In this document: piece by piece, positions 3,651-42,995 of the stretch
Numbering within the stretch: the first letter of the stretch is position 1
How the letters are laid out: every line of letters begins with the position of its first letter
NCBI RefSeq assembly: GCF_009730915.1
Contig: NC_052487.1
Span: 19,150,529-19,214,528 of the forward strand
Length of the DNA: 64,000 bases
Direction: 5' to 3'
From: Dioscorea cayenensis subsp. rotundata
Lineage: Eukaryota; Streptophyta; Magnoliopsida; Dioscoreales; Dioscoreaceae
Notes under the pieces: generated by a model
Told to the model about the DNA's origin: nothing
Databases searched by the model: none
What the model saw: the letters and a program-made list of their open reading frames with translations, nothing else
Translations under genes and position numbers: made by a program

Positions 3651-4345
3651 AAGACAAAAAAAACATACAAGAAGGGAATGTAAAATGTCGAGATTGTCCT
3701 AGATAAGGTTAAAAATAACTTCTCGAGGGAAAAGTGGAGAGAGAGAGAGAAAGGAATTCTACAATTTAAATTAAATATATATCAGTTGATTTTAAATTTT
3801 CTATAAATAATCTCTCAATCCAAAAATAAATCAAATCTTAAATTGTTTTGCTACAATGTGTTTTTTTTTTTAAATTTAAATATGAAAAACTTATCGCAAA
3901 AAACTTCACATACATAAACTTATTATTTCAACACATTTATACCTTTAACTTATTTAAAATAAATTTTAAACCTGTATTTTTAATACATATAAATATCTTA
4001 CATAGAGGACCTCACATTGGTGTATCAGGTCAATGTTTTTTTTTTTTTTTATCAAATGTGACAAACACATGTTAGTATCTCTATCATGTGTGAGTTAATA
4101 TCTCAAATACGTTCTCACTCGTGAATTAATTCCTCAGACAAATATGCGAACCCTCACTATTCTGCATTTCACACGAGAGACCCATGTTAGTGCCAAGTGG
4201 TCATTGGCGTGGAGATTGTTTAATTTTTTTTTTTTAAGAATTTTATTTACATCATTGCAAATAATGAAAATTTAAGGGATATATTTCCAAATCAACCCGG
4301 AGTGGCAGTATTGTCAATAAACCCAAATCCAAGTCCCTTTTCAAA
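3651..4345. other. AT-rich spacer upstream of PFK
   Basis: Homopolymer-rich spacer with poly-T tracts near 3859, 4035 and 4220. No gene recognised. The last part is probably PFK promoter. Confidence 0.4.
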
Positions 4346-36518: not shown

Positions 36519-37309
36519 ATGGCCAACAATATTATTCCATCCTTTCTCTTCATGATCAATATCATCACCATAATCTTCTTCTTCACTTGTTTTCCATTAT
36601 CTTCTCAAGCAGCTCTTGATGTTGAAGGGATGTTTGTGTTTGGGAGCTCATTAGTTGATAATGGAAATAACAATTACTTAAGGAACTCTAGTGCTAGAGC
36701 TAATTATGTTCCTTATGGGATTGACTTCCCTTTAGGACCTTCTGGCAGGTTCTCTAATGGAAGGAACCCTATTGATGTTCTTGGAGAGCTTCTTAAACTT
36801 CCTTCTTTTATACCACCTTTCTCTGATCCTGCTACTAATGGCCATAGGATTTCTCATGGTGTCAACTTTGCCTCTGGTGGTTCTGGCATTTTAGATGAAA
36901 CTGGCTCCATCACTGTAAGTACTTCTAATTAGTTTAATTAAATTTTTATTATAAATTCATTTTTGTTACCACTCTTGATTACTAGTGGAGTTATTAAAGT
37001 CTTGTTTATAGTTCTCTTAAGATAGTGAAAATTAATCTTTTAGTGATTTTTTTAATAATTGACTGAATTGATTTATTTTGACTTGTTTGGCAAAGATATA
37101 TATATATTTTTTTTAATTTGATTAGTTCAGTTAAGATTCCTTTTTAAAGAAAAGTTTGTTATTTGGTTCATTATGGTTTTTCATAGTAAGATAAATGATA
37201 ATATAAATTATTTTTTCTTTAAACTTTTGTGTTTTGTGTTTTTAATATATTTATATTGATAGATTTTTATTTATATTGTTTTATTTCAATAATAAGATTT
37301 TTTACCATA

Positions 37310-37340
<31 letters not shown>

Positions 37341-39323
37341 TTACTTTTATTATGATGATATAGGTTAGTGAAATTGGTCTGGCTGGTTTTGTGTTTTATA
37401 TAATTATAATTTTTTAATTATATAATTTTCAAACAAGCGAAATAAACCAATCACAATCGAAACACTCCCTATAATAATAACTTAGAATTAAATGCACATA
37501 TAATTAACAAAGCCAAATAAGTAGCTCATATGCCCCTTACTAATTTATTTAAAAAAGCATGCAACACATAACAAACAATAAGTAACTCTTGTACTAACTC
37601 TCTCTCTCATTAGAAATAATTGGCTTTAATAGTTTCATATCATGCAAATATCTAAGCTTTTCTCTTTTAATAAGTTTGACTTCTTCAATTCGGTTCATTA
37701 ATCAATCTAACACTTATCATGATATCAAAGTTAATTAACTTATCATAATTAGAAAATTAATTAATATGATTTATAAATTTTTTTTGTTACTAAACATGAT
37801 TAATCTATTTAAATATAATTAATAGGGGGAAGTGACAAGCATGAACCAACAAATAAGGAACTTTGAGAAGGTTACACTTGCAGAGATGGGAGGCCTTTTT
37901 GATTTGAAGAAAAACTCTGACTATTTATCAAAGTACTTGTTCATTGTGGGAACTGGAGGAAATGACTACTTTTTAAACTACTTCACTTCCAAGAAGAAGA
38001 CTACTACTCTTCTCAAGTTCACTCACACTCTCATTGCTACTTTATCTTGCCAACTCAAGGTAATATATTCTTGTAATTTTTAAAACATTTATATTTTGTA
38101 AAACTATATATGTTTTTTTTACTTTATTATTCGGATCTCTTATGCAAGTATATTTATAAGGATATGCAAGGAATTACAAACTTGTATAGGGACTTGGAAA
38201 TTTAAAAAAACAAACACGTAAAGGGTTTAATTAAGAGCATGTTGCTAAAATTCATTAAACGTGAGAAACCACACCTCTAATCTAGTGGTAATTCATCACA
38301 AAATACTCAAGGGAGTGCCCAAGGGTTGAAAACCCTACTCCGATAGGTACTATTTATCAACACCGTTCACACACTCGTATATTAGGGTCATTACTACTTA
38401 TAAGTATTGTTTATTGTATATTAAGATTTAGTACTATTTATATATTAGCACTATTTGTTATTGTTAGTGTAGGGCCCTCTGTGTGAAGAACAGTGTTGTC
38501 TTTTTTCTAGAGTTGTATGATAGGGAGATTTATCATTAGGGAGTTGTTATACCAACATAATTGGCGTACTTCTATACATGTCTATCCTTTTAACAACACT
38601 TGTAATCTTTGTTAAAAAAAAACACTCACACTAAAGTCATTAATTAATTAATAATAAGTAAAAACAAACTCCAACTCGTTAATCTGATCTATAATAAATA
38701 AACATTTTTATAAATTAATAATTTGAAAATGCATGCAGAGATTATATGATTTAGGAGCAAGAAAGTTTGTATTGTTTTCAATTCAAGCCATGGGATGCAT
38801 TCCAGCAGTGAGAGACAACCATAGAGTTAGCATTAATGGGAGCTGTGTAGAAGCCATGAATGAAGCTGCCATTCTCTTCAACAACCATCTCAAAGCCTTG
38901 GTCATCAAATTACCAAACTCTTCCATGCCTCATGCTTCAATGATCTTCATCAACTCCTACAAAATTATTAATGACATCATCACCAATCCAAAACAACATG
39001 GTACTTCTCTTTTAACTCTCATTAAATTAATGATTAATATAATGCAAAATTAATTTATATTGAGTGAGTTTGATTGTTTTGGTTAATGTTTAGGTTTTAA
39101 AGAAACAAGCAAAGCATGCTGTGATTTACCATCAAATGGGATACTTTGTAGAAGAGGAGGAAAAGCATGCAGAGACAGGAATAGCCATGTTTTCTTTGAT
39201 GGTCTTCATCCCACTGATGCTGTTAATCAAAGGATTGCTTACAAAGCTTATGCTTCTAACCTTAAGACTGAAGCTTATCCCACCAATGTTAAAAACTTAG
39301 TCCATATGTATAACTCACAATAA
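36519..39323 (+). CDS. Secreted GDSL esterase/lipase (SGNH hydrolase)
   Basis: Extracellular or ER-routed esterase or acyltransferase; substrate unknown. Four exons: 36519-36914, 37826-38059, 38739-39000, 39094-39323; 373 residues, typical for plant GDSL lipases. Residues 1-31 form a signal peptide with a strongly hydrophobic core ending SSQA. Block I reads FVFGSSLVDNGNN, so the motif is GSSL rather than GDSL; the catalytic Ser44 is kept. Block II Gly is in HGVNFASGGSGIL, block III has GGND with Asn178, and block V has DGLHP with Asp333 and His336. All catalytic positions are therefore present. The LYDLGARKFVLFSIQAMGCIP segment (exon 3) is the usual family block. The nearby oleosin-like gene is on the same strand, but I see no shared regulation. 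Confidence 0.94.
38265..38500 (+). mobile_element. SINE-like fragment in GDSL intron 2
   Basis: TCTAGTGGTAATTC (38280s) resembles a tRNA A box, and AGGGTTGAAAACCC (38320s) resembles a B box about 40 bp later. A similar arrangement occurs at about 42836-42990. Boundaries not resolved. Confidence 0.35.
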
Positions 39324-39950
39324 AATCCAAGCATATTAATTAACTAGGACTTAATTAATATGATATATATATTCTAAGTTTCCTCTGTAATTTTCTTTTA
39401 ATGGTATATAGCTAGCTAGTACTTTATCTTTATTGGAGTCTTTTGTAAGTGCTTTTCTCAAGGCACATGTTAGAATTAGAGCGAAGAGTTTTGTAAGTAT
39501 ACTATTAAATAAGTATATATAAAGTGTTAACTTTGTCTATTTAGAAATTAAATTATTTTCTAGATTTAATTACCATATAGATTCTATGTACTTTCTATCT
39601 TTTTAATTTTTTTAATATTTTAAAATACAATTAAGTCATCAATTAATTTATTGTGTAAATAATCAAGTGTTAAATGTCAAAAAATATTATAAAACTTAAT
39701 TATACTTAAAAATATTATCATAAATTAAAATAATTTAATTTGATTAAATACAAAAATTTAATTATACTTAAAAATATTATAAAAAATAAAAAATAAAAAA
39801 TACACAATTATAAAAACTTGTAAAACCATTAAACCTATTTTCTCCATAGCTTGAATTCACATCCTAACCAGCTATTCATTGCTCTATTTAGAATAGTGGT
39901 ATATATATATTGAGTACCTACACTTATTAAATAGGTATTATCACACCAAA
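39324..39950. other. GDSL 3' flank
   Basis: 3' UTR and AT-rich spacer with repeated AAAAATATTAT blocks around 39690-39790. No gene. Confidence 0.5.
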
Positions 39951-39953
39951 TTA

Positions 39954-40051
39954 ACACGTGTCATTCATGCAACACACATACTCACACGTGCCATGCACAC
40001 GTAGCACATTTCCCATGCAAAGTTGGCAAAACCCTTTCCTCTCTCTTTATA
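39954..40051 (+). promoter_or_regulatory. Seed-type promoter: ABRE and RY elements with TATA box
   Basis: Two ACACGTG ABRE/G-boxes (39954-39960 and 39984-39990) and a third ACGT core near 40000 alternate with three RY-core CATGCA sites (39966-39971, 39992-39997, 40014-40019). TTTATA follows at 40046-40051 and the ATG is at 40093. RY plus ABRE is the known input for the B3 factors ABI3/FUS3/LEC2 and bZIPs in seed-storage and oleosin promoters. Confidence 0.7.
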
Positions 40052-40092
40052 CTCTTCAACACATACATCTCTGATCTCTTTTTATCTAAAGA

Positions 40093-40335
40093 ATGGCTGA
40101 GAAGCAGCATAGATATGCAAAGAGACAAATAACAACACCATGGACACGCACACGCCAAACGTTCAAGTTCATAACCGCAGGAGCAACTGGGGCGATGCTG
40201 CTCTTTCTGGCCGGGCTGACGGCGACGGTGACGGTGATGTCTTTGGTGATGGCCACGCCGGTGATGGTTATCTTCAGGCCGGTTCTGGTCCCCGAGGTGG
40301 GTGTGCCGGCGTTTTACTTGGAAAAAACTAATTGA
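40093..40335 (+). CDS. Short oleosin-like protein with half a hairpin
   Basis: Oleosins coat seed oil bodies and insert a hydrophobic hairpin into the lipid. This 80-codon reading frame has a basic N terminus (1-25), then a hydrophobic arm from about 26 to 61 with TAGATGAMLLFLAGLTAT, and a proline knot P56-VMVIF-RP-VLV-P67. That matches the oleosin consensus PX5SPX3P with Arg instead of Ser. Instead of the second hydrophobic arm it ends 13 residues later (EVGVPAFYLEKTN). Normal oleosins are about 140-190 residues. A GAG|GTGGGT donor-like site at about 40297-40302 could allow a second exon, but none is recognisable downstream, where a solo LTR begins at 40491. The seed-type promoter supports expression. 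It may be a functional mini-oleosin or a 3'-truncated gene. Confidence 0.7.
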   Translation: MAEKQHRYAKRQITTPWTRTRQTFKFITAGATGAMLLFLAGLTATVTVMSLVMATPVMVIFRPVLVPEVGVPAFYLEKTN

Positions 40336-40490
40336 ATAATTTGAAATAAAAGTAGGGAGTAATTAACTTAATTTCTCTTGGGTCATGGACTCATGTTTGT
40401 GATATATTATTTAAATAAATAAGGAAACTTTGAATTATTTATATGATGTTTTTTCTGATCCCCTAAAAAGTGTATATATTTGTCACGTCC

Positions 40491-42820
40491 CAGCCCCACA
40501 GCCGGGCCCGCGGATAGATCGGCCGCATCCAATGGGATTGGGCTCCACTGGGTGCAAGGCCTCAGCTAAAAACCTGGTCAGAGTCAACCCTAACAAGCAG
40601 ATATGAACAAAAACACAAAAGACAACATGGATACTTGGAAATTTAAAATACTACAAGTACTGGACTTTTAGCAGACCCTCTACGAATACAAATACAACCC
40701 AACAGTTCGCAAATTACAAATACAATCAAAATACAAGTCTTACACTCACAAGCAGGTAACAACAAGATACTGATAACGCAGACAATACGACTCTCTGACA
40801 CCCCCTGCACTCCAACTTGATCTTCTCCTCGCAAACATGAATACACAGAGTGCATGAGCCACAGGGCCCAGAGGGATCGCAGAAAAACAACATGTATAGC
40901 GGATATTGCGTAATAATAGCTCATGCTTCATACAGTAATACGAAAATACGTGAATACTCGGAATAATCCAAAAAACACGAAAAACACGCTAAATACATCT
41001 CCATGGCTAATAATCAAATCAACAAAGACGAGGCTCGGGATCTTCGACTGTAAGTCTGAATGTAACGTAACGAATATCAACAATCAGTAGCTGGGATCTT
41101 CGACCAGCAATGGGGGTAGCGCATTTACTACGTAAAAACATGTGCACATGGCTAGGGACTTACTCCTCCTAATCGAGGCGAGTCGAAATGGAGATGTACT
41201 AAAAACTCCCGCAAATACGGAATACTGACATGAGGAATTCATCAATAAGTAATGCAAATAAGAAAAATAAATAAATAAACATAAATACCACGCAAATAAA
41301 TAAATAAATAAAATTATTAAACAATGCAATAATTAAATAATAATTATTGCGTAAATCTAGTATCACACAAAGTCGAGAGCCTACACTGGCTCCGAGCTAC
41401 TGAGTTGGGTTCACCAAGTCCCGCGAACCACGTCCTGTATGGATCTACCCGCAGTAACTATACTTAGATTACAACTTTAGATCGGGCCTAAACTTACAAC
41501 TAACACCCAAAGAATGAATATGAAAAGAAGATAATAATCTAATTTTAGAACATCGACTTTACCACTTAACTTAATAATGCAAAATAACTTAACAAAACCA
41601 AGCATTTAAACCATGCTTTAAAATAACATGCTTTAAATAACATGAAACCAGCCAAATACCTACCCTAATCACCAAAATGAAATTCAGAGAAAATAAATAA
41701 TTAAATATATAAACATATATATATATATTTCCATATTCTATGGTAATAAACCAGAACATTTTGCATCAATATTTAACACACAAATATAATATATAGTTTC
41801 AGAACATCATGCATTAATATATACACATATACCAACTAACTAAAAGCATGATTAAAAGATGCTATACTTACAAGGTGGATAGGTTAAACATAGATAAAGA
41901 ACACAATTACCATTAAGCATAGCAGGACACAAGATTCATGTTGTTAATCCCCCAACCAAAGTTTCAGAATGCTTATGCATATTTCAAAATATACATGAAC
42001 ATCTAAACATGGTGGCATGCATACAATACAAGTTCACATCAATTTAATCATTAGAGGCAACATGTTTACTAAACATCTGCTAAGCATGGTCAAAGCCAGT
42101 AATTAAACAAATAAGATTCACCAACCGACAACAAATTAAAAACTAAAAGAAAAAATCTCATGGTGACTTAATTACATACACCAAGACTTCAGAATATACA
42201 TGCACAATATATATATATATTTAAATTAGACTAAACAAGAAGCATGTTTGCAGGATGTCAGGTTTACATATTTGTATCAATTAATATATAAATTAGACTA
42301 AGATAACATGCTTACAGCATTTTCAGAGCACCTACACAAGTATAAATAATAAACTATACAATGATTGCATGCTTACAAGAAGAATGAAATACAACACACT
42401 GAGATATTCATGCATAAGTGAATATGTGAACAAAACAACCAAATCAATGCCTTAAAATTACACAAGCATGGACAGAGATGTTCATGGCTTGCCAAACTAG
42501 AACAAACATCAAGACAACTACAAAAAACATGGATTCACCTACCTCTAATCTCTCCGAGGATCCGCCGGTGAAGAGAATCTCCCTCCAACTCCAAGCTTTA
42601 AGAGAAGAAAAAGCTGGAATTTCGGCCTCCTGAAGATGCCAATCAGCAAGCAAGCAAGCTTGAGTTGCTCCCCTTAAAACTAAACAAAACACCACAAGCC
42701 AATAATTCACTCATCAAGATCCGGTTTTTAAGGGCAAAGAGACAAACAATGGGGGCCCGCTCACCAACAACTCAGTCAACCAGTCAAAGTTGAAGAAAAT
42801 GAAATTTTACAAACCTTACA
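40491..42820. mobile_element. Solo LTR of an LTR retrotransposon (2330 bp)
   Basis: Begins TGTCACGTCCCAGCCCC, ends AAACCTTACA, and is flanked by the 5-bp target duplication ATATT at 40486-40490 and 42821-42825. The TG...CA termini and 5-bp duplication are those of LTR retrotransposons. The long CG-containing start is like Ty3/gypsy LTRs. No primer-binding site, polyprotein or second LTR is present, so the element was reduced to one LTR by recombination. Its first few hundred bases are GC-richer than the surroundings. Confidence 0.85.
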
Positions 42821-42829
42821 ATATTATAA

Positions 42830-42995
42830 TTTATAAAGTGGTAAACTGGATAACCGTATGACATTTGTGTAAAGGAGGGCAAAGTTTGAATCTTTCCCCA
42901 TATAATACAATACTGTATATTTGGGCTCACTACCCGTATGCACACTATTGTTTATATATTATATATTATTTAAACATATTGTTTACTATCTACAG
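42830..42995 (+). mobile_element. SINE-like fragment next to the solo LTR
   Basis: AAGTGGTAAACTGG (A-box-like) and AAAGTTTGAATCTTTCC (B-box-like) about 45 bp apart, similar in layout to 38265-38500. No clear ends. Confidence 0.3.

Follow-up and report, generated by a model that had tools for sequence, protein, structure and literature searches.

A probable 3'-truncated oleosin gene that stops just past the proline knot in Dioscorea

Can an oleosin gene that ends just past its proline knot still be in working order, or is it the remainder of a longer gene? This question is raised by an 80-codon open frame in a stretch of 64,000 nucleotides (C17:19150529-19214528, hereafter the window), which belongs to a 584 Mb genome of 2249 contigs. 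The locus comprises the following features:

39893..40092, plus strand: seed-type promoter region, delimited by a cluster of RY and ACGTG motifs
40093..40335, plus strand: 80-codon open frame from ATG to TGA, the N-terminal half of an oleosin according to its Pfam match
40168..40257, plus strand: first hydrophobic arm, residues 26-55, within the uncharged stretch that begins at residue 26
40258..40293, plus strand: proline knot P56-x5-R62-P63-x3-P67, from a codon table against the copies on C4 and C19
40294..40332, plus strand: 13-codon tail after the knot, without clear oleosin homology (paralogue alignments end at residues 67-69, the weak one with C5 at 71)
40336..40482, plus strand: A/T-rich 3' flank, 24% GC, with AATAAA at 40345 and 40414, as read from the sequence

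The translated frame matches the oleosin domain (PF01277) in hmmscan with an E-value of 1.6e-12 and 47.6 bits against a cut-off of 25, whereas two further Pfam families remain below their own cut-offs. The alignment joins residues 22-70 to positions 2-50 of the 113 profile positions only. The uncharged run, which starts at residue 26 and extends into the knot, is 36 residues long vs. approx. 72 in a two-arm hydrophobic hairpin. The knot retains the three prolines of PX5SPX3P; however, its serine codon (AGT in C4 and AGC in C19) is AGG, which encodes arginine. The frame then stops 13 codons past the knot, with no C-terminal hydrophilic or amphipathic region. The preliminary description had drawn the same picture: one arm followed by a knot with P56, P63 and P67 in which Ser is changed to Arg, as is borne out by the Pfam score and the codon table, and a missing second arm and C-terminal region, which agrees with the profile coverage and with a six-frame search of the window. 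A single-sequence model weakly predicts a single helix at residues 16-65 (mean pLDDT 69.2). Neither stops nor frameshifts occur within the 80 codons; the damage consists of the absent 3' half, which makes the copy incomplete compared with paralogues in the same genome.

The best explanation is probably that this is an oleosin gene whose 3' half was lost at approx. 40293, most likely leaving a non-functional or decaying copy. A deletion or rearrangement at this point would have removed the second hairpin arm together with the C-terminal region, and the frame would since have read through 13 codons of DNA without oleosin homology before reaching a stop. The promoter motifs, the start codon, the first arm and the knot prolines have been kept, and the truncated copy is perhaps still transcribed. 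If transcription takes place in seed, the 80-residue product would insert into the ER with no more than one hydrophobic helix, and would then be misdirected or degraded; an ER-anchored or misdirected single-helix protein is the most likely product, if any is made.

Truncation is favoured by the Pfam match, which ends at position 50 of 113, and by the paralogue alignments, which end at residues 67-69. Clear oleosin homology ends with the last knot proline (residue 67, base 40293). The C4 paralogue is 52% identical over residues 20-67, where the alignment stops, the C19 paralogue is 53% identical over residues 21-69, and the weak alignment with C5 ends at residue 71; codons 68-80 have no clear homology to the paralogues. 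These alignments place the putative breakpoint at or just past 40293. When 40294-40480 was compared by local alignment with the 3' regions of seven other copies, six gave matches no better than mononucleotide shuffles, and the C5 match, which runs through an A/T-rich stretch, was equalled by 3 of 200 shuffles. A second arm was sought with a profile of six paralogues against stop-free stretches of at least 15 codons in six frames of the whole window, and none was found: the frame itself scored E 1.6e-14 and the next best stretch E 1.7. In addition, the own-genome family search gave no other oleosin match on C17 within 18 Mb among the matches listed. Thus, as neither search returned a nearby match, no second arm was found downstream, and the two together speak against a downstream exon that carries one. 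A second arm hidden by a frameshift can likewise be set aside, since inspection by eye of 40094-40600 in the two remaining frames revealed none.

The own-genome family search, in which only the best candidates were scored (17 in all), returned at least 11 matches. Among the 11 matches listed, profile coverage reaches at least 109 of 113 positions for the copies on C4, C17 and C5 and for one C20 gene; it is 98 for the other of the two C20 genes and 80, hairpin included, for C19 and for a C471 copy flagged with one TAG. The hairpin is partly missing in the remaining four, i.e., the window copy (positions 2-50), C14 (28-99), C16 (30-62) and a second C471 match (66-111). The last of these (C471:6918-7055) contains two stops, lies approx. 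1 kb beyond the first, C19-like C471 copy, and may be part of it. Damaged oleosin copies are not rare in this genome, given that 4 of the 11 listed matches have an incomplete hairpin. A search with the 80 residues themselves gave seven matches from eight candidates (the frame itself, C4, C471, C19, C17, C20 and C5); this search of the 584 Mb genome revealed no further short form, and none of the seven matches covers residues 72-80.

Some of these copies have histories of their own. Duplicates of the C19 oleosin region, each including several kb of flanking DNA, lie on C16 and C471 (95% identity over 7966 bp and 92% over 6421 bp), and the oleosin frame of the C16 duplicate is broken. On C14 (C14:17685500-17694000, positions 3690-3907), a 218-bp piece is 99% identical to a C20 oleosin gene, and nothing else in those 8.5 kb matches the fetched C20 region; the piece is either part of a gene captured recently or an artefact of the assembly. 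The second C20 oleosin (C20:23600415-23603708) diverges from its neighbour after RSRIA, which is also where the C14 fragment departs from C20. The window copy itself was also considered as a duplicate of a C4 block. Nine matches were found in 200 kb of C4, but these amount to the oleosin with its antisense, a pair of kinase-like stretches and other short pieces, so that no gene order is shared. Just upstream of the oleosin frame and on the same strand, 36519-39320 appears to hold a multi-exon GDSL-type lipase gene, with Lipase_GDSL matches in three of four scanned pieces, all below the Pfam cut-off. On the other side, 40483-42970 looks by eye like a repeat-like element that starts near TGTCACGTCCC, approx. 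190 bases past the breakpoint; repeat-like DNA may begin near 40483, and comparison of this stretch with 299 kb of fetched loci and with the remainder of the window gave no match.

Seed promoters are marked by RY and G-box motifs, which drive expression in seed. Upstream of the oleosin frame, CATGCA (RY) occurs at 39966, 39992 and 40014, CACGTG at 39955 and 39985, and CACGTA at 39998. Counted on both strands, the 200 bp before the ATG contain eight motifs (three RY and five ACGTG), a number reached by 7 of 3190 sliding 200-bp windows, all of which overlap this spot, the densest such cluster in the window. The designation of a seed-type promoter in the preliminary description therefore holds as a motif pattern. 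Where the window copy has three CATGCA and five ACGTG (both strands), each of the seven other copies has one or two and zero to three, respectively, in 250 bp of upstream sequence. Alignment of the promoter with those of C4 (equalled by 2 of 100 shuffles) and of one C20 copy, C20b (by 0 of 100), matches in A/T-rich stretches only, and the other five of the seven copies gave no match.

The substitution pattern was also considered. Over 47 codons, changes unique to the window copy in comparison with C4 and C19 number 11, 8 and 13 at codon positions 1, 2 and 3, vs. 4, 0 and 5 for C4 and 4, 7 and 7 for C19; relative to the C17 and C5 copies, they number 20, 11 and 17. The pattern of 11, 8 and 13 appears to be near that expected under relaxed constraint. 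However, C19 keeps its hairpin and yet is similarly flat, so such a pattern does not single out broken copies. The values of pN and pS are 0.291 and 0.463 between the window copy and C4, and 0.174 and 0.407 between C4 and C19. In a codon model of five sequences and 46 codons, with large distances and one branch at its upper bound, omega is 0.32 on the window-copy branch and 0.15 on the others, a common value is not rejected (p = 0.21), and omega = 1 on the window-copy branch is weakly rejected (p = 0.04). Because of these distances and the bound branch, and because the branch spans both the time before truncation and the time since, the model does not decide the matter.

Three readings had been offered at the outset, among which 3' truncation is best supported. 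Running counter to a broken copy are the 80 open codons, a promoter motif count higher than in any of the seven other copies compared, and the weak rejection of omega = 1. The first and last of these, together with the three retained knot prolines, the motif cluster and the two AATAAA sequences, would also fit a genuine expressed mini-oleosin, i.e., a seed protein of the ER or droplets with one arm and a knot, which alters how droplets bud or how large they become. This is unlikely, as no second short form exists among the genomic matches, and as the knot serine and half of the hairpin are gone, both of which are necessary for correct targeting according to the available part of a review (PMC10138601). 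A literature search found nothing on mini-, short or half-oleosins, or on the oleosin proline knot in Dioscorea. The absence of a second short form and the loss of the serine and half of the hairpin also weigh against the other reading, a dominant modifier; that a seed-expressed single-arm derivative with its knot prolines arose by truncation in this lineage and acts dominantly on droplet budding or size is very doubtful. An assembly error, in which a full-length locus was joined to the wrong DNA after the knot, would account for the abrupt break in homology and might be expected of a genome in 2249 contigs. Nonetheless, no orphan second half that could be paired with the window copy was found among the matches listed, the only match confined to the second half being C471:6918-7055, which may belong to its C19-like neighbour, and such an error is decidedly improbable. 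Least probable is that the frame is exon 1 of a spliced gene with its second arm downstream: introns occur in some oleosins (PMC8897914, available part), and a donor-like GAG|GTGGGT lies at 40297, the sole one in the frame when four donor-like patterns were sought, but no second-arm peptide of at least 15 codons exists in any frame of the window, no other match lies nearby on C17 among those listed, and the intron reported for a Euphorbiaceae clade does not sit at the knot.

The truncated-gene reading can be set against what is known of oleosins elsewhere. In the available part of PMC8897914, rice oleosin genes are intronless, most Arabidopsis ones have one or two introns, and the intron of the Euphorbiaceae clade is located in an R codon just past the 72-residue motif. 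With regard to the protein, the review cited above states, in the part available, that an oleosin is targeted correctly only with a complete hairpin and with all three prolines and the serine of the knot, and that mutant proteins altered in the hairpin or knot are reported to be misdirected (PMC10138601), and insertion of plant oleosins depends on SRP and Sec61 (PMC12687448, likewise in part). Were the 80-residue protein produced, it would serve as a natural experiment on whether one arm and a knot can enter droplets, a question treated with reference to modified oleosins in the same review (PMC10138601, available part). If the copy is broken, it has little significance, since partial oleosin genes are already on record (PMC8897914, available part). 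The full-length C4 paralogue shares with the window copy the first arm and the knot prolines, and also has RY and ACGTG motifs upstream; however, it has a 72-residue uncharged hairpin, the knot serine and a C-terminal region, whereas the window copy ends 13 residues past the knot. The closest parallel is found in the rubber tree, for which the available part of PMC8897914 describes three incomplete, apparently unexpressed oleosin pseudogenes. As here, these are partial oleosin coding sequences alongside intact family members; no expression evidence is reported for them in that part, whereas the window copy has kept the frame of its retained half and its promoter motifs intact.
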